Source of the DNA: Chloroflexota bacterium | Lineage (GTDB): Bacteria > Chloroflexota > Limnocylindria > QHBO01 | NCBI GenBank assembly: GCA_040902225.1 | Contig: JBBDXT010000002.1 | Span: 342,036 to 406,035, forward strand | Reading direction: 5' to 3' | Length of the DNA: 64,000 nt | Part shown: positions 11,100-64,000 of the stretch, in pieces | Numbering within the stretch: position 1 is the first letter of the stretch | Layout of the letters: each line of letters opens with the position of its first letter | Notes under the pieces: generated by a model | What the model was told of the DNA's origin: nothing | Seen by the model: the letters and a program-made list of their open reading frames with translations, nothing else | Databases searched by the model: none | Translations under genes and position numbers: made by a program

Positions 11100-13715
11100 C
11101 TATCCGCGGCCCAGGGCGAGTTCGGTGGCCTGCTCGACCGTGAGCCGTTGGCCTTCCATGAAGGCTGCAGCCAGCGAGGGAGCGTCGGTCAATGTCTCCG
11201 GGTAGAAGCCCGCGAACTCGCGGTTCATCTTGGCCAGGCCAGTGCCGGCGCTCGCCTCCGTGGCCGCCGCGTACCCCGCCAGCCTGACGGCGCGCTTCAC
11301 GTCGCCCTCGATCCAGTACAACGCCGCGAAGGCGTCGAAGACGAGCGCGTATCCGGACTTGTCCTCGCTCTCGGTAAAGAGCGGGAGGGCCTCCTCGAGC
11401 AACCGCCGCATGGCCGCCTGGTCAAGGGTCAGGTTGTAGAGGGCCATCATGTAGAGCGTCCAGCCGGTCATGAACCGATCTTCGATGCGCCGGAAGACCT
11501 CCAGCGCCTCCCGAGCCAACTCGATGCCGCCTGCGAAATCGCCGAAGAAGTAAAACGAGTTGGCCAAACCCCAGAGGGAGCGACCGATCCCCGCGTCGTC
11601 CCCCACCCGACGATAGATCTCAACCGCCTCCTGTGCCAGGGTGTGCGCGCGCACCTGGTCATCGTGCTCCATGCCCGCGGAGCTGGCCAGGTTGTAGATG
11701 GCGTTGGCGATGCGAGCCTCGTCATTCGAGGCCCGTGCGATCTCGAGTGCCCCCTCGTACCAGGCCCGGGCGGGCGCCAGGTCGCCCTGCCAGTAGGCGA
11801 TCCCACCCGCAGCCTCGAGTGCTGCGCCTCGCGCGTCGGGTTGATCGGTACTGCCGGGGAGCGCGAGCACACGCTCGGCATGCTCCCGCGCTTCGGCGAG
11901 GTAGCCGCGCATCTGCCAGAACCGCCAGCAGGCCGCGAAGATGCGCATCGCCATCTCGGCCTGATCGCGGGCGATCGCGCGAGAAAGCGCGGCGCGGATG
12001 TTGTCGTGCTCGCGCTCGTATCGGTCCAGGATCGCCTTCTTGTCCGGTCCGAAGACCGATGCCCCCGCCGCCTCGACCAGGGCCAGGATCCAGGCGGCGT
12101 GCCGGTCCGCGAGACCGTCGGCCTCGGCGCGCTCGGCGAGCTTCTCCATCGCGAACTCGCGGATCGTGCCCAGCATCCGGAAGCGCGGCTCACCGTCCGG
12201 CTCGCTCTCCTGGCGCACCAGGCTCTTGTCGACCAGCGATGCGATCGCGTCGAGGGGGTCCGCCCCGTCATCGGCGTCGAATACGACCTGCTCGATGGCA
12301 TCCAGCGTGGCTCCCCCCGCGAAGACCGCGAAGCGGGCGAACAGGCGCTGGTCTGCCTCCTCGAGCAGGTCGTGGCTCCAGGCGATCGCGCCGCGCAGCG
12401 TCTGCTGGCGTTCCGGAAGATCGCGGGAGCCGCCGGAGAGGAGCTTCAGCCGGTCCCCCAGCCGTTCCATGATCGCCTGCGGGCTGAGGACGCGGACCCG
12501 GGCGGCGGCCAGCTCGATCGCCAGCGGCAATCCGTCAAGGCGCACGCAGATCTCCGCCACAGCCGGCGCGTTGGCGCCGGTTACCGCGAAACCGGGCCGC
12601 ACCGCCATGGCGCGCTCGACGAAGAGCGCCACCGACTCGTACGTCGAGAACTGCTCCAGGTCGGGAAGGTGCTGCGGATCCGGGACGCCGAGGGGCGGAA
12701 CCGGGTACTCGCGCTCACCATAGACCCGCAACGGGCTGCGGCTGGTGACCAGCACCGAGATCCTGGTGGCCCGCACCAGCAGCTCGGCGATCTGCGGGGC
12801 GGCGTCGCTGACCTGCTCGAAGTTGTCGAGCACCAGCAGCATGCACTTGTCGCCGATGTGCTCCGCCAGGCGGTCGAGCGGCTGGGTCCCCGGGTCGACC
12901 AGCCCCAGCGCCTGCGCGATGGTGGGGAGCACCAGGTCGGACTGGCTGATGGTGCCCAGCGGCACGAAATAGACGCCGTCCGCGAATCGATCGGTGGCGT
13001 CGGCCGCGATCTGCAGCGAGAGGCGGGTCTTTCCCGTCCCACCCGGGCCGGTCAGCGTGAGCAGGCGACCATCGATCAGCAGCTGCCGGCCCTCGGCGAT
13101 CTCGCGCTGGCGCCCAAGGAACGAGGTCAGCTGCATCGGCAGGTTATTTGGAACCGCGTTCAGGGTGAGCAGCGGCGGGAAGTCGCCGGCTGCTCCCTCG
13201 ATGACCAGGTCCCAGATGCGCTCGGGTCGTGACAGGTCCTTGAGCCGATGCTCCCCCATCTCGCGCAGCGAGACGCCATCGGGCAAGCTCCCCTCCACCA
13301 GTGCTCGAGTGGTGGCCGAGAGGAGCACCTGGCCGCCGTGCCCCGCGTTGGCAATCCGCGCCGCGCGATGCACGTCGAGCCCCACGTAGGAGCCGCCGCT
13401 CAGCACGCCCTCGCCGGTGTGCAGCCCCATCCGGCTGCGGACCTGGCCGCCGACCGGCCACGCCTCTGCGCCCAGGCCGCGCTGTACCGCCACCGCCGCC
13501 GCAACCGCCTGCGGTGCGCTGGTGAAGACCACGAAGAAGGAGTCACCCTCCGTCCCGATCTCGACGCCGTGCTGCTCCGCCCACGCCGCTCGCGCGATCT
13601 GGCGATGCCGCTCCAGGAGGGGCGGCCACTCCTCGCCCAGGTCCTGGGCGAGGCGGGTCGAACCCTCGATGTCGGTGAACAGGAACGTGACGGTTCCGGT
13701 CGGACTCTCGGTCAC
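11100..13715 (-). CDS. Class III nucleotide cyclase/NB-ARC ATPase/TPR signalling protein
   Basis: An 871-aa multidomain protein. Residues 1-165 are a class III cyclase domain: FLFTDIEGST carries the first metal Asp, EGDSFFVVF the second, and HRAARIANAGHGGQ is the region of the transition-state Arg. Residues about 190-480 are an AAA/NB-ARC ATPase (Walker A GPGGTGKTR, Walker B LLVLDNF, and LPLAIELAAARV). Residues 560-871 are alpha-helical TPR repeats. Similar proteins are abundant in Chloroflexota and Actinobacteria, where ligands and targets are mostly unknown. It lacks the usual C-terminal LuxR HTH, so direct DNA binding is not indicated. The start is GTG 13715. Confidence 0.88.
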   Translation of the reverse strand: MTESPTGTVTFLFTDIEGSTRLAQDLGEEWPPLLERHRQIARAAWAEQHGVEIGTEGDSFFVVFTSAPQAVAAAVAVQRGLGAEAWPVGGQVRSRMGLHTGEGVLSGGSYVGLDVHRAARIANAGHGGQVLLSATTRALVEGSLPDGVSLREMGEHRLKDLSRPERIWDLVIEGAAGDFPPLLTLNAVPNNLPMQLTSFLGRQREIAEGRQLLIDGRLLTLTGPGGTGKTRLSLQIAADATDRFADGVYFVPLGTISQSDLVLPTIAQALGLVDPGTQPLDRLAEHIGDKCMLLVLDNFEQVSDAAPQIAELLVRATRISVLVTSRSPLRVYGEREYPVPPLGVPDPQHLPDLEQFSTYESVALFVERAMAVRPGFAVTGANAPAVAEICVRLDGLPLAIELAAARVRVLSPQAIMERLGDRLKLLSGGSRDLPERQQTLRGAIAWSHDLLEEADQRLFARFAVFAGGATLDAIEQVVFDADDGADPLDAIASLVDKSLVRQESEPDGEPRFRMLGTIREFAMEKLAERAEADGLADRHAAWILALVEAAGASVFGPDKKAILDRYEREHDNIRAALSRAIARDQAEMAMRIFAACWRFWQMRGYLAEAREHAERVLALPGSTDQPDARGAALEAAGGIAYWQGDLAPARAWYEGALEIARASNDEARIANAIYNLASSAGMEHDDQVRAHTLAQEAVEIYRRVGDDAGIGRSLWGLANSFYFFGDFAGGIELAREALEVFRRIEDRFMTGWTLYMMALYNLTLDQAAMRRLLEEALPLFTESEDKSGYALVFDAFAALYWIEGDVKRAVRLAGYAAATEASAGTGLAKMNREFAGFYPETLTDAPSLAAAFMEGQRLTVEQATELALGRG

Positions 13716-58440: not shown

Positions 58441-58488
58441 CGACGTAGGAGAGCGGAATCTCGGCGGGATCGGCCGGGGGTCTGAGAC

Positions 58489-58538
58489 TGGCTGGGGCGG
58501 AAGGATTCGAACCTTCGATCTCCTGATCCAGAGTCAAG
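58489..58538 (-). tRNA. tRNA-Gln(CUG) 3' half, partial (probable attachment-site duplicate)
   Basis: On the minus strand the sequence runs from the anticodon stem through the loop CTCTGGA (anticodon CUG) and a 5-nt variable loop. A perfect T-arm (GAAGG-TTCGAAT-CCTTC) follows, then acceptor strand CGCCCCA, discriminator G and CCA. The matching 5' half (TGGGGCG plus D-arm) is missing: the bases before the anticodon stem do not fit a D-arm. A 3' tRNA half ending in CCA is what integrases leave at the far end of an inserted element. By orientation the element lies to the right. Confidence 0.8.
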
Positions 58539-58630
58539 TGCCGCCCGGAGGCCCGCAGCGGCCGTCCTCAGCCAAGATTCGTGCTCAGACTCGGCCCACG
58601 CCTCGTCCTCGCATGTTCGGTTTTCCGGTG

Positions 58631-58697
58631 AGTCAGGTGCCCAGCCCGGAAGGGAGTCAGGTGCCCACGCGCGAAAACGGAAAGAATCAGGTGCCCA
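58631..58697 (+). repeat. Three direct repeats of AGTCAGGTGCCCA
   Basis: Copies start at 58631, 58655 and 58685 (the third begins AATCAGG), spaced 24 and 30 bp apart; a weaker AGTCAGGTG is at 58818. They lie just inside the tRNA fragment. They could be arm-type integrase binding sites or relics of REP-like palindromes; neither is proven. Confidence 0.55.
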
Positions 58698-59009
58698 CGC
58701 GCTGGCGGCTCCTGAGGGGATTGTATAGGTTGGGCGCCCCGAGGCGTGGCTGTCCCATTCGACCTTGTACTGGCTTGGCCGCACATGAGTGGGCTGCCTC
58801 TCGATATCCTTATACGCAGTCAGGTGATCACGGATGTCGCGTCCCATCGGTGAGGCAGGATTGAAGCCCGGTCGAAATCGGCGCTCGATCCTGCATTGGC
58901 GGCTAGCTGCATTCCCGAATCCCCACCTCAAGCCTCGCTACGCATCCCGCCCGGTCCGCGAGGCGCGACCGAAGCCGGCAGGCCATGGCTGGTCGTCCAT
59001 CACGCAGAA

Positions 59010-59957
59010 CTACGCCGGCCACGCCAACAGGCGTGCGGGATTCGTCACGAGCACGGCATCGAGGAGGGCCGGACCGGCAGCTGCGGTGAGGCGCGGAATG
59101 AAGCGGGTCGGAAGGTATGCCATCCCCGGGAGCCCCCCATAGGACGCGAACGAGGAGCGCCGCGCGACGTCCCCACCGAGCAGAATGCGGTCGGCAGCTC
59201 CGCCCCGCGCAACTGCAAGAAGGCACTCAATGAGGATGGAGTCTGGCCAGTACTTCGCCCGTCCCGCTCCGTCATAGCCCAGGTACACTCCCGAGGCGGC
59301 GAGCTCGAGGTGGAGCTCCGCGTCGGGGTTGCGGTCGACGTGGGCGAGCGCGAGTCGGTGGCGCGGGACGCCTTCCTCTTCGAGGAGCGCTGCGACCTCG
59401 AAGCCCGCCGTTCCCTGCTCAAGATGGCAAACGACCGGCGCGCCGGTTCGTCGGTGCGCAGCGCCCGCCGCCGCCAACACGTTGCGCTCGAACGTCGATA
59501 TGTGCCAGTAGCCAATGCCGACCTTGATTACACCGGCACGCACATCGGTCGCCGGTGGCGGAGTCGACGATCGGTCATCGGCGTTCATGCCCTCCATGAG
59601 GTCACCAACGAAGCGCTCCGCCAAGTCGTCCGCGGTCATCTCGCGAAGCCAATGCCTGTCCGGGTAATGCGCCTCTTGATGCACGCCTGTGCTCGCGACG
59701 ATCGTCATGCCTGACCGCGTGGCGATGTCTCGCAGGCCCTCCGGACGCCTGCCGAGGCCGATGGGGGTTAGCTCGACGAGAGCATCGATTCCCGCCGACC
59801 GGAGCGCGGTCGCTTCGTGAGTGGAGCGGGCCACGTCATCCAACTCGTCGCCACGCATCAGAGAACTACTCTGGAGGAGGTGCTCGTGGTAGTCGGTGCG
59901 CCCGAGCGATCCAGCGGGTATGTCGCCCGTCACGGTCCGGACGAATGATGGCGTCAC
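59010..59957 (-). CDS. Phosphotriesterase-family lactonase-like hydrolase
   Basis: A 315-aa TIM-barrel amidohydrolase (COG1735). All metal ligands are present: HEH in TDYHEHLLQ, carbamylated Lys in VIKVGIGYW, His in VVCHLEQG, His in LALAHVDRNPD and Asp in ILLGGDVARR. PTE-like proteins in catabolic operons are usually sugar- or acyl-lactonases rather than phosphotriesterases, which fits the operon here. The start is GTG 59957, overlapping the stop of the AroE-like gene. It is the last gene of the operon. Confidence 0.88.
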   Translation of the reverse strand: MTPSFVRTVTGDIPAGSLGRTDYHEHLLQSSSLMRGDELDDVARSTHEATALRSAGIDALVELTPIGLGRRPEGLRDIATRSGMTIVASTGVHQEAHYPDRHWLREMTADDLAERFVGDLMEGMNADDRSSTPPPATDVRAGVIKVGIGYWHISTFERNVLAAAGAAHRRTGAPVVCHLEQGTAGFEVAALLEEEGVPRHRLALAHVDRNPDAELHLELAASGVYLGYDGAGRAKYWPDSILIECLLAVARGGAADRILLGGDVARRSSFASYGGLPGMAYLPTRFIPRLTAAAGPALLDAVLVTNPARLLAWPA

Positions 59958-60880
59958 AGGCGTTCGGCCTTTGCGATCACCGACAGCCGCCTGAGCATCG
60001 CCCTGTCGATCCGGATTCCGAAGACCTCCCCGATCACCTCGCTCCACCCATGGACGAAGTAGCGCCAGCCATCCTCCACCGCCTCGAGCTGCGCACGCTG
60101 CCTCGAAGCCTGCTCGAGGAACCGAAGCTTGCCGCGATAGTTGAGCTCCCACGCGATGCCACCCTCGGGGAACCGTGCGGCGTCGGTGAGCGGTGAGCCC
60201 GGACGGTCCTTTCCCATGCCGGTGGCGTTGATGACGAGCGATCCGCCAGGCAGCGCGGCCATGCGTCGATCGTTCTTCTCCGGGACCTCGTTGCAGACGA
60301 GCTCGACGCGATCGGCGACGCCGAGCCACTCGAAGACCGATCGGCAGGCGTCAAGCCTAGGCGCTGTCCGATTCACGAGCGCCACGCGTCGAGGGCGGTC
60401 CGCCGCGGGTCGCTCCGCAAGAAGATGGACGGCGATCGCTAGGCCGGCGCCGCCCGCCCCGAAGCACAGAACCTCTGCGCCTGACGCAAAGTGCCCGGGA
60501 GGCACGAACGCGTCGAGCGCTCGTCCGCCGGTGATCACGTCCTTCGCCTGCCCGATGAACCGTCCGTCGCGTTTCGAGATGCACGACACCTCGCCGAGAA
60601 GTCGCGCGTGCTCGTCAAGCTCGTCGAAGAGATTGCTTGCCGCGTCGAGGATGCGGACCTTGTGCGTGGTGACGAGCGCACCGCGTACGCAGGTGTCGTC
60701 GCGAAGATCGGCGATCACCGCCCGGTAGGCTGCCGGATCGGTGTCGAGCGGCAAGTCGATGGGCTCGAGCACCGTACCGGTGATGCCAAGGGCGCTGGCC
60801 CACTGCGGGAAGAGACGGTTGATCGAGCTGCGCGTCGCGGTCACGCCGACGAAGGCGAGGGTGTCGGCAGTCCGCGTCAC
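59954..60880 (-). CDS. Shikimate/quinate dehydrogenase-like oxidoreductase
   Basis: A 308-aa AroE-fold protein. The N-terminal substrate domain has GVTATRSSINRLFPQWA (Ser-x-Ser-Ile/Ser-rich binding) and GALVTTHKVRIL with the catalytic Lys. The NAD(P) domain has CFGAGGAGLAIAVHLLA and LVINATGMGKD. It has HK instead of the usual PxK, so the substrate is probably not shikimate. The start is GTG 60880, overlapping the previous stop (GTGA). In this operon it may oxidise a polyol or sugar acid. Confidence 0.85.
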   Translation of the reverse strand: MTRTADTLAFVGVTATRSSINRLFPQWASALGITGTVLEPIDLPLDTDPAAYRAVIADLRDDTCVRGALVTTHKVRILDAASNLFDELDEHARLLGEVSCISKRDGRFIGQAKDVITGGRALDAFVPPGHFASGAEVLCFGAGGAGLAIAVHLLAERPAADRPRRVALVNRTAPRLDACRSVFEWLGVADRVELVCNEVPEKNDRRMAALPGGSLVINATGMGKDRPGSPLTDAARFPEGGIAWELNYRGKLRFLEQASRQRAQLEAVEDGWRYFVHGWSEVIGEVFGIRIDRAMLRRLSVIAKAERL

Positions 60881-61827
60881 GCCGAGGCTCCTGCGCTGAC
60901 CGGATGCTCCGGAGCCTCGCCGCGCACGAGGACCCGCACGCACTCACGTGCGGCGCTCATCCCCATTCGGTCGACGGCCTGAACACTCTGCCCTGCGATA
61001 TGCGGCGTGACAATGACATTCGGCGCGTCGAGGAGCGGGCTCCGGCCATGGTCTTCCGTGCTGAGGACGTCGGTCGCCAGCGCTCCGAGCCGGCCCGTGC
61101 GCAGCAGCTCCGCGACGGCGGCCTCGTCGATGAGCGCCGCGCGCGCCGTGTTCACGAGGATGGCGCCGGGTCTCATGGCCGTGAGCAGCGTGCCGTCGAT
61201 GAGGGGCCTGGGCGTCGCGGGGGCGTGGAGCGTGACGATGTCGGCCACACGGACCAGCTCCGCGAGCGAAACGAGCGGGATGTCGACGTCAACCGCATAT
61301 GGATCGTGCGCCACCACTCGCGACCCGAAGCCGTTGAGACGCCGGTGGACGGCCCGACCGATCCGGCCGTAGCCGACGATCCCGACCGTGCACTCGCCGA
61401 GCTCGCGCCCTACCTTGCCGGACCAATGGCCCGCCCGCACTGCACGGTCACCCTCGACGATGCCGCGCAGGGCGGCAAGTGCCAGCCCGATGGTCAAGTC
61501 GGCGACGGCCTCGGCGTTGGCACCGGGGGTGTTGGTGACGATCACGCCTCGGCGACGAGCGGCGTCGAGGTCGACGCTGTCGACGCCGACCCCGTAGCGG
61601 GCCACGATCCTCAACATCGGCGCTGCGTCGAGATGCTCTGCGCCGATCGGAGCGGTGCCGGCGATCCATCCCTCGGCGCGGGCGAGGTGCGGCAGGAGCG
61701 CGACCAACTCATGGCCCGGATCGCCGCGGACGACGTTCAGGCCCTCGGCGCGAAGCAGAGCCTCTGGATCCTTCTCGCCGCCGCCGAACGACCGCGTCGT
61801 AACGAGGACGGTCCGGTCCTTATCCAC
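60877..61827 (-). CDS. D-2-hydroxyacid dehydrogenase (SerA-like)
   Basis: A 316-aa NAD-dependent dehydrogenase. The NAD site is GIVGYGRIGRAVHRRL at about residues 145-160. The catalytic Arg is in NTARAALIDEAAV, the Glu in ALATDVLSTEDH, and the His in VIVTPHIAGQ. It reduces or oxidises a 2-oxo/2-hydroxyacid pair. It overlaps the fused regulator-aldolase gene by 8 nt (start GTG 61827). Confidence 0.9.
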   Translation of the reverse strand: MDKDRTVLVTTRSFGGGEKDPEALLRAEGLNVVRGDPGHELVALLPHLARAEGWIAGTAPIGAEHLDAAPMLRIVARYGVGVDSVDLDAARRRGVIVTNTPGANAEAVADLTIGLALAALRGIVEGDRAVRAGHWSGKVGRELGECTVGIVGYGRIGRAVHRRLNGFGSRVVAHDPYAVDVDIPLVSLAELVRVADIVTLHAPATPRPLIDGTLLTAMRPGAILVNTARAALIDEAAVAELLRTGRLGALATDVLSTEDHGRSPLLDAPNVIVTPHIAGQSVQAVDRMGMSAARECVRVLVRGEAPEHPVSAGASA

Positions 61828-63310
61828 GCGGCACCTCGTCGATGACGGCACGAAGTGCCGTCGCGCGACGAGCGAGCTCCCGAGCATCGCCGGCAGCCAC
61901 CGCGTCGGGCGGACACAGTGGCCCCCCCACGTTCACCGCCACGGCGCCGGCCTCGAGATACGCGGCGATGTTCGAAGCGTCGACGCCGCCCGACGGCATG
62001 AGCGGCACGTGGGGCATGGGTGCCGCCACCGCGCGCACGTAGGCGGGACCGCCGAGGGACGCAGGAAAGAGCTTGACGGGGCCGCCCGTGAGCCGATAGG
62101 CGGCCAGGAGCTCGGACGGCGTCTGACCGGCGAGGATGACCGGCACAGCGGCACCCGCAGACGCCACCTCCGGCACCAAGGCCGGGCAGACGAGGAACTG
62201 CGCGCCGGCCTCGATCGCCAGGCGAGCCGATCCAGCGTCGAGGACTGACCCCGCGCCCACGACGACGTCTCCGAGCGCTCGCGCCTGCTCGATCGCCTCC
62301 AGTGCGTTCTCTCCGGTCAGCGTGAACTCGACGAGACCGACACCGCCCTCAGCGAGAGCGCCCGCGATGACGCGACCATCAGCGTAGCGAGGCGCGCGAA
62401 CGACGGCGACGATCCGGTCGGTCCGCAGCCGCGCACCGAATGGCGTCGACCAAACGTCCACGCCAGGGCCCGACCCGCGGCGGTCGACCCGTATCGGCGC
62501 ACGATCTCCCCCGAGCAACGGAACCACGGTCGGCTGGAATGGGAGCGTCGGCTCGCCAGGGACCATCTCCACCGCGAAGCGCGTCCGATCGGCCCGATGC
62601 CACGCCTCGAACCACTCGAGCGGCGCCCCGTCGTGTGTTCGGCCCGCACTTCGCAGGAGCAGGAGTGGCGTGCCCTGGGCGACCTCCAGGTGGTGGGCGA
62701 CCTCGCCCTCGGCGGGCACGGCCTCAACGGTGCGCTCGCCGGAGTGGACTCGCAGGCCATACGCGCTCCGAAGGTGCGCATAGAGCGATCGATCCGTGAG
62801 GTCGAAAGTCTCGAGGCCCGGGCATCGCTCGCGCGGCAGGTACGTAACCACGTACGCGAGCACGCGGCCAGCGACCGAGCGCACACGATCGATGCGGATC
62901 GCGTGGGTGACGCCCAAGAACTCCCCCACCTCCAGCGGTACCTCGGTGATCTCCTGCCGCAGGACGCGGGTGCCGACCTCGAGCCCCATGCGCGTCACGT
63001 CGTCGTAGAAACCGCTGGCGCGCTGGACGAAGCGCTCGGAGAGCTTCTTTTCGGCGACGAAGCTGCCGCGACCGCGCACGGTGCGGATGAAGCCAGCGTG
63101 CGCGAGGTTGCGGAGCGTCTGGCGCGTCACGCTGCGCGATACATGGTACGTGGCGCAGATCTCGTTCTCCGACGGGAGGAGGTCGCCGGGTCGATACAGC
63201 CCCGCGTCGATCTCGGCGCGGATGATCTGCTCGAGCTGGTGATAGAGCGGCGTCGGCGCGGTGCGGTCGATCTGTCGTAATCGTCCGGGTGATCGTGCCT
63301 GATCAGCCAT
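61820..63310 (-). CDS. GntR-UTRA regulator fused to a KDPG/KHG-type aldolase
   Basis: A 496-aa two-part protein in one uninterrupted frame. Residues about 15-85 are a GntR winged helix (PLYHQLEQIIRAEIDAGLYRPG, LPSENEICATYHVSRSVTRQ). About 90-247 are a UTRA ligand domain. After a linker of about 45 residues, 296-496 form a class I aldolase. Its catalytic Glu is in GLVEFTLTGENAL (about 328), Schiff-base Lys in GGPVKLFPAS (about 413), and phosphate site in MPSGGVDASN. The usual Arg after the Glu motif (TLRT) is Thr-Gly here. ATG 63310 is chosen; it overlaps the cupin stop by 8 nt. Separate GntR and Eda proteins are normal, so the fusion is unusual. Confidence 0.88.
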   Translation of the reverse strand: MADQARSPGRLRQIDRTAPTPLYHQLEQIIRAEIDAGLYRPGDLLPSENEICATYHVSRSVTRQTLRNLAHAGFIRTVRGRGSFVAEKKLSERFVQRASGFYDDVTRMGLEVGTRVLRQEITEVPLEVGEFLGVTHAIRIDRVRSVAGRVLAYVVTYLPRERCPGLETFDLTDRSLYAHLRSAYGLRVHSGERTVEAVPAEGEVAHHLEVAQGTPLLLLRSAGRTHDGAPLEWFEAWHRADRTRFAVEMVPGEPTLPFQPTVVPLLGGDRAPIRVDRRGSGPGVDVWSTPFGARLRTDRIVAVVRAPRYADGRVIAGALAEGGVGLVEFTLTGENALEAIEQARALGDVVVGAGSVLDAGSARLAIEAGAQFLVCPALVPEVASAGAAVPVILAGQTPSELLAAYRLTGGPVKLFPASLGGPAYVRAVAAPMPHVPLMPSGGVDASNIAAYLEAGAVAVNVGGPLCPPDAVAAGDARELARRATALRAVIDEVPRG

Positions 63311-63722
63311 CCGAATCACCGTCGCTCCGAACAGCCATGTCGGGGGTCACGCCATCGGGGACGATCGCCACCGCCAGGAGCGTGTCCTCCTCGATGTCGT
63401 GCCAGTCATGCAACGTGCCGGGATGGAAGACGTAGGTCTCGGGGCCTACATAGTCGAGGGCGCGCCCGGTGGGAAGCCCCAGCGTGCCGCGCCCGCGAAC
63501 AATGAGACAAAAGGCGAGCTTGGGACTGGAGTGCATGACGTAGCCGCCGCCGGCGGCGATCTCGACCAGCTGAAGCTCGACTTCGCCGCGATCCTCGATG
63601 CGGTAGACGCCCACCCCGTGGAGCGGCTGCCCGTCGAGGTGAGGCACCGGATCCAATTCCGGTGCCTCACGGACGTTGGCGCTGATCTCGCCGTTGACGA
63701 TGTCGAAAACCGTGACTCGCAT
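63303..63722 (-). CDS. Cupin-domain protein
   Basis: A 139-aa single cupin. GGGYVMHSSPKLAFCLIVRGRGTL is cupin motif 1 with one His, and HPGTLHDWHDI is motif 2. Metal binding is probably incomplete but possible through the second motif. Cupins in sugar-acid operons include isomerases and KdgF-like ring openers. It begins 5 nt after the upstream kinase stop and is coupled to the regulator-aldolase gene. Confidence 0.82.
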   Translation of the reverse strand: MRVTVFDIVNGEISANVREAPELDPVPHLDGQPLHGVGVYRIEDRGEVELQLVEIAAGGGYVMHSSPKLAFCLIVRGRGTLGLPTGRALDYVGPETYVFHPGTLHDWHDIEEDTLLAVAIVPDGVTPDMAVRSDGDSDG

Positions 63723-63727
63723 GACGT

Positions 63728-64000
63728 TCAGCTCCGTTCCTCGACCGATGCGCCCTGCGGCGCGTCTGCCATCGCGCGGAAGACCGGCGTGAGCGCGTCG
63801 CCCAGTGCCCGGTAGGCGCCGCGCAGCTGGTCATAGATTGCGTGGCGTTCGGCATCAGGCCGAACAGCCGTGCCGGCTCTCTGCCACGAGTCTGCCGCCG
63901 AGGCCACATCGCGCACGTGCCCGGTGGCGGCGGCGGCGATGATTGCGTCGCCCAGGACGCCGCACTCCTGCGTCACGACCGGAATCCAGTCGATGCCCAG
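63728..64000 (-). CDS. FGGY-family carbohydrate kinase, C-terminal fragment (cut by window edge)
   Basis: The last 90 codons of a kinase, open to the right edge. TQECGVLGDAIIAAAATGHV is the EGAALGAAILA-type helix of FGGY kinases, with Cys and Gly at the usual Ala/Ala spots. YDQLRGAYRALGDALTPVF is the typical C-terminal helix. FGGY kinases phosphorylate pentuloses, gluconate, glycerol or erythritol. As the first visible gene of the operon it would make the sugar phosphate for the aldolase. Confidence 0.82.
   Translation of the reverse strand: MGIDWIPVVTQECGVLGDAIIAAAATGHVRDVASAADSWQRAGTAVRPDAERHAIYDQLRGAYRALGDALTPVFRAMADAPQGASVEERS

Follow-up and report, generated by a model that had tools for sequence, protein, structure and literature searches.

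A conserved GntR/UTRA-KDPG/KHG aldolase fusion as a putative repressor and enzyme of its own catabolic operon

We asked whether a single reading frame of a Chloroflexota bacterium, in which a transcription factor appears to be joined to an aldolase, encodes a genuine protein, and how its two halves may work together. The frame lies near the end of a stretch of 64,000 nucleotides, the whole of which is referred to as the window (genome G000). An earlier note on this DNA had described a complete GntR/UTRA repressor and a complete class I aldolase, with its Lys and Glu, in one frame. ORF analysis of the window yielded a stop-free frame on the minus strand, which comprised 499 codons from the GTG at 63319 or 496 codons from the ATG at 63310, the latter being the end coordinate given in the earlier note. 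The gene and its parts are as follows.

61820..63319, minus strand: GntR-UTRA-KDPG/KHG aldolase fusion gene (499 aa; alternative ATG start at 63310)
63056..63247, minus strand: GntR winged-helix DNA-binding domain (residues 25-88; PF00392, 60.8 bits)
62582..62989, minus strand: UTRA effector domain (residues 111-246; PF07702, 112 bits; alignment to 4u0v)
62441..62563, minus strand: interdomain linker (residues 253-293, ~45 residues; variable length, poorly conserved, low pLDDT)
61874..62434, minus strand: class I KDPG/KHG aldolase domain (residues 296-482; PF01081, 121 bits)
62327..62329, minus strand: Glu331 codon, catalytic general acid/base (from the alignment of aldolases)
62072..62074, minus strand: Lys416 codon, Schiff-base lysine (from the alignment of aldolases)

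The three Pfam matches were all well above the cut-off, and E331 and K416 of the window protein fell in the alignment columns of the catalytic Glu and the Schiff-base Lys, which are kept in 112 of 113 aldolases. That is, the description of two complete halves in one frame was confirmed. Structure prediction and inspection of the linker, which the note had proposed, succeeded in part. The aldolase domain was modelled by AF2 with a pLDDT of about 98, its PDB matches being the KDPG aldolases 8di1 and 1wa3, and the linker had low pLDDT, but AlphaFold gave no reliable model of the GntR half or of the domain arrangement.

A missing stop or a frameshift in the assembly could also produce such a frame, and the note had named this as the finding that would overturn its claim. 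We consider the probability of an assembly or sequencing artefact negligible, and this reading was discarded on account of intact orthologs in other genomes. Intact frames were found in G009, which belongs to another genus of the same family (508 aa, 96% identity to the 499-residue window protein), in G602, in G645 (two copies), and in G826, and Ka/Ks was low. Between G000 and G009, Ka/Ks was 0.09 for the HTH, 0.11 for UTRA, and 0.14 for the aldolase, indicating purifying selection on both halves; the linker value of 0.49 was derived from only nine changes. In a third genus (G019), residues 1-101 and 426-499 were present as pieces at two contig ends. The window fusion is a genuine, conserved protein that is common to two distant bacterial groups.

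Among 177 genomes of the window's class, full-length fusions occurred in G000 and G009 only, apart from the pieces in G019, and a 400-genome sample of the phylum added none in Chloroflexota. The note had recommended a search for other GntR-UTRA proteins with an appended PF01081 domain; besides the G009 protein, it returned full-length fusions in a 346-genome sample of Actinomycetota, i.e., in G602 (66% identity), G645 (two copies, 55% and 52%), and G826 (48%). These three genomes fall in one class, in which 66 genomes were searched. Two further phyla, sampled with 297 and 299 genomes, yielded no fusion; the first sample lacked a positive control. None of 72,556 plasmid records covered 80% of the fusion query, and no GntR relative was found in viral contigs. 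In maximum-likelihood trees built from 49 rows for the GntR half and 113 rows for the aldolase half, the six fused proteins formed a single clade with support of 100/99 and 100/98, respectively. Therefore, the simplest reading of the trees would be one fusion event, followed by horizontal spread.

As the note had stated, GntR regulators and aldolases are normally separate genes, and this also holds for the sister operons. G061, of the same class as the window genome, carries an orthologous operon with 52-71% identity for most genes, in which the GntR and aldolase genes are free-standing at opposite ends; as they lie some 15 kb apart, their separation is not explicable by a frameshift. In G237 and G216 (Chloroflexota), G843 (Actinomycetota), and Arthrobacter sp. 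MA-N2, the two are separate genes within one cluster, accompanied by an AroE-like gene and mostly also by FGGY, GPI, and 2-hydroxyacid dehydrogenase genes. Hits of a lactonase probe, part of which was out of frame, were disregarded here. The Arthrobacter proteins are close to the fused clade in both trees. Because regulator and aldolase are separate but co-clustered in these sister operons, the fusion appears to have united two parts that were already working in one pathway. Two independent domains may nevertheless have been joined by chance, with a benefit limited to co-expression, and we hold such a neutral fusion at somewhat less than an even chance. The linker is flexible and unconserved, and each half resembles ordinary free-standing relatives. 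However, the fusion has been kept over 48-66% identity and in two phyla, and no split descendants were seen within the fused clade.

The fusion gene overlaps its neighbour genes on both sides, resembling a tightly packed operon. The surrounding features are as follows.

63728..64000, minus strand: FGGY sugar kinase, C-terminal part (gene runs past the window end)
63303..63722, minus strand: cupin-like protein (by eye), 139 aa, directly upstream and overlapping the fusion start (no Pfam/NCBIfam match)
60877..61887, minus strand: D-2-hydroxyacid dehydrogenase (SerA/GhrB-like), directly downstream of the fusion
59954..60943, minus strand: shikimate-dehydrogenase (AroE)-like protein, operon gene
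59010..60329, minus strand: phosphotriesterase-family protein, phospho-furanose-lactonase-like (PF02126; extent of the frame, true start probably downstream)
58981..64000, no strand assigned: window part of a ~13.4-kb block (G000 vs G009 96.5% identical; continues to G000:C2 about 414461)
58485..58542, no strand assigned: match to the tRNA-Gln(CTG) 3' end (in G009, this 3' end borders the block as a direct repeat)

The operon begins with a short-chain dehydrogenase, a sugar ABC transporter (binding protein, ATPase, and permease), a Gfo/Idh dehydrogenase, and a Zn alcohol dehydrogenase, continues with a cupin-type GPI, the FGGY kinase, the cupin-like protein, and the fusion, and ends with the 2-hydroxyacid dehydrogenase, the AroE-like protein, and the phosphotriesterase-family lactonase-like protein. 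G602 has a nearly identical gene set in conserved order. The Gfo/Idh dehydrogenase is closest to inositol 2-dehydrogenase and the Zn alcohol dehydrogenase to scyllo-inosose 3-dehydrogenase; an inositol route (IolG/IolM), which these enzymes suggested, was set aside as no further operon gene confirmed it.

The ~13.4-kb operon block is 96.5% identical between G000 and G009, whereas the rpoB regions of the two genomes are about 84% identical. In addition, the G009 block is bordered by a direct repeat, perfect over 55 bp, that corresponds to the 3' part of tRNA-Gln(CTG); G000 retains a decayed copy. The block and rpoB identities and the tRNA-Gln repeats together point to recent horizontal transfer of the operon block as a genomic island. 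The locus exposes a sugar-acid catabolic operon, apparently uncharacterised, that seems to be mobile between bacterial genera. The putatively moved block occupies 58485-64000 of the window and beyond, and 3296-17067 of L050. Its orientation relative to the tRNA-Gln repeat differs in G000.

We then turned to the DNA that the GntR half may recognize. NagR/DasR-type GTNTANAC sites were not found at the operon heads, and the search was therefore directed to another motif, the 10-mer TGTACGGACA, which lies at the operon head in G000, G009, and G061, shortly downstream of a TTGACA element. After the motif had been selected visually in G000 and G061, it was tested by counting, which gave five exact matches in 156 kb of operon loci versus one in 1.54 Mb of background. 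All four operon copies outside the motif choice have a site near the operon or gene start, exact in G645b and G826 and with one mismatch in G602 (TGTACGTACA) and G645a (TGTACTGACA, twice); matches with at most one mismatch to TGTACGGACA occurred in the background at a rate of 8 in 695 kb. The motif or its close variants are common to fused and unfused versions of the operon. A strict scan for sigma-70 promoters returned no complete one. We infer that TGTACGGACA is an operator-like site of the GntR half, as a prediction from sequence.

The effector pocket was compared with that of NagR, which holds the phosphate of its effector by Thr90, Arg133, Arg135, Ser165, Ile166, and Tyr167 (PMC4333415). 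In the alignment to 4u0v, Arg145, Arg147, Ser178, Leu179, and Tyr180 of the window protein correspond to NagR Arg133, Arg135, Ser165, Ile166, and Tyr167, and both the R-x-R pair (Arg145/Arg147) and the S-L-Y stretch (Ser178-Leu179-Tyr180) are kept in all six fusions. NagR Glu145 and Tyr228 are not conserved, being Val157 and His241 in the window protein. The retained phosphate-binding residues suggest a phosphorylated inducer and the replaced Glu145 a ligand unlike GlcNAc-6-P; thus, the effector is likely to be phosphorylated and other than GlcNAc-6-P. The sugar-phosphate inducer supposed by the earlier note is plausible on the same grounds, given the NagR-type site in UTRA.

In the aldolase half, the note had remarked that the Arg beside the catalytic Glu is replaced, and it had concluded that the enzyme may have a new substrate or a sensory role. 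The replacement is real (Thr335, at the position of Eda Arg49), but Thr is the family norm: it occupies this position in 84 of 113 aldolases, Arg in 6, and the T. maritima KDPG aldolase 1wa3 likewise has Thr. We therefore rejected it as a special feature, and an argument for a sensory role is left only in G826. The catalytic Glu and Lys are kept in the other five of the six fusions. At least 90% of free aldolases have Gly at positions 397 and 411; both glycines are altered in all fusions. In G000 and G009, the fusion was the only PF01081 protein found, i.e., the pathway would have no spare of this family, which favours an active enzyme.

In G826 (L200, 5164-6684), Glu331 is changed to Ala and Lys416 to Glu, making this the sole one of the 113 aldolase domains without either residue. 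The domain has lost 8 of 26 strongly conserved positions and sits on an end branch of 2.06 in the aldolase tree, compared with a median of 0.36, and the frame stays open to its end. Identity to the window protein is 56% in the GntR half and 42% in the aldolase half; the aldolase half of G826 evolves fast, the GntR half does not. The G826 genome has another PF01081 protein. A non-catalytic (sensory or structural) role of the aldolase domain is possible in G826; alternatively, the domain may be decaying. Extended to the whole family, such a role would mean that the aldolase half serves mainly to sense a second ligand or to mediate oligomerisation, much as MocR regulators use their aminotransferase domain. 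G826, which keeps the domain in frame on its long branch after the loss of E331 and K416, fits this proposal. The known KDPG aldolases form trimers and GntR proteins form dimers; joining the two would allow higher-order assembly. However, the preservation of both catalytic residues in five of the six fusions, the sole PF01081 protein in G000 and G009, and the aldolase Ka/Ks of 0.14 make a family-wide sensory or structural role distinctly unlikely.

We regard a bifunctional protein, in which a self-regulating repressor is combined with an active aldolase of the same pathway, as the best explanation, with a probability of about 0.7. The GntR/UTRA half would bind the TGTACGGACA sites and their variants just downstream of TTGACA and repress its own catabolic operon, and a phosphorylated pathway intermediate in the UTRA pocket would lift repression. 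The C-terminal half would be an active class I KDPG/KHG-type aldolase that carries out the retro-aldol step of the same pathway. The fusion would hold enzyme and repressor at 1:1; negative feedback would follow should the inducer be the substrate of the aldolase or a metabolite next to it. The domains, their conservation, the operon context, the single fused clade, and the shared motif are direct results, and DNA binding at the motif, the inducer class, catalysis, and feedback are inferred. We prefer this explanation because the domains are complete, the aldolase is modelled with a pLDDT of about 98, the catalytic residues are kept in five of the six fusions, and selection is purifying; further reasons are the unfused sister operons, the single fused clade, the enriched TGTACGGACA motif, and the kept R-x-R and S-L-Y residues. 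Counted against it were the loss of Glu and Lys in G826, indicating that in this genome, at least, the protein can do without the catalytic function of its aldolase half, as well as the Gly397 and Gly411 changes, the choice of the motif by eye, the lack of a strict sigma-70 promoter, and the replacement of NagR Glu145.

The earlier note had gone further and suggested a trigger enzyme or built-in timer. In that case, the aldolase would consume the inducer that UTRA binds, or DNA binding would change allosterically when the aldolase active site is occupied, and catalysis would reset the operon. A same-pathway fusion conserved across two phyla, a UTRA site that looks phosphate-binding, the retained Schiff-base aldolase residues, and the persistence of the domain in G826 after catalytic loss are consistent with this proposal. 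The variable, unconserved linker does not favour tight allostery, however, and the sister operons function with separate genes; we thus consider the timer doubtful, with an appreciable chance. The probabilities given to coupling and to neutral fusion overlap with that of the bifunctional repressor-aldolase, since both are sub-cases of bifunctionality. We judge unlikely a self-limiting switch in which a phosphorylated keto-acid intermediate would release the protein from repressing its operon and the protein's own aldolase would destroy this inducer or its neighbour, with G826 as a dead sensor branch. If true, G826 would show a path from bifunctional enzyme to pure regulator.

The window protein can be compared with several known systems. 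With the GntR/HutC repressors NagR/YvoA and DasR (sequence relatives PDB 2ra5, 4u0v, and 4zs8), it has in common the N-terminal winged helix and UTRA, the phosphate-binding Arg pair with Ser-x-Tyr, and a predicted operator-like site of the TGT-N4-ACA type, whereas it differs in the extra C-terminal enzyme domain and in the replaced NagR Glu145 and Tyr228. Like Eda and the T. maritima enzyme (1wa3/1vlw), it has a complete (beta/alpha)8 domain that includes Glu and Lys, and, as in T. maritima, Thr takes the place of Eda Arg49. Unlike Eda, the domain sits behind a repressor, scores below the NCBIfam eda cut-offs, and differs at Gly397 and Gly411 in every fusion; by sequence, one of the fusions is catalytically dead. 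MocR/PdxR regulators also join a GntR winged helix to an enzyme fold, in their case an aminotransferase-like domain (PMC6677901), but they have no UTRA. The window protein keeps UTRA, and its C-terminal domain is PF01081, an active-looking aldolase, rather than the fold-type I aminotransferase domain that defines MocR. PutA and BirA are trigger enzymes or enzyme-repressors in which coupling has been shown (PMC6978683). The window fusion would likewise hold a pathway enzyme and the repressor of its own operon in one protein, although folds and pathway differ and coupling is only presumed here.

Proteins that fuse a regulator to an enzyme form a small but recognised class. No description of the GntR/UTRA and KDPG aldolase architecture was found in the open-access literature searched, to which it apparently adds a new regulator-enzyme pairing. 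Unfused relatives, active-looking fusions, a catalytically dead member, and a predicted operator stand here side by side, which makes testable both the evolution from enzyme to regulator and whether a circuit that resets itself arises when a repressor is fused to an enzyme of its own pathway.

Several minor observations concern the unfused operons. In G061, a gene resembling the cobalamin-independent methionine synthase family (by eye; L183, about 11300-13270) lies between the lactonase-like gene and the free aldolase, and the lactonase-like and AroE-like genes look frame-shifted, perhaps through assembly errors. In Arthrobacter sp. MA-N2 (L059), the GntR/UTRA gene is followed by a phosphotriesterase-like gene and a YhfT-like membrane protein (by eye), with the aldolase and AroE-like genes on the other strand; this locus resembles the E. 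coli yhf region and may itself be related to the pathway of the window operon.
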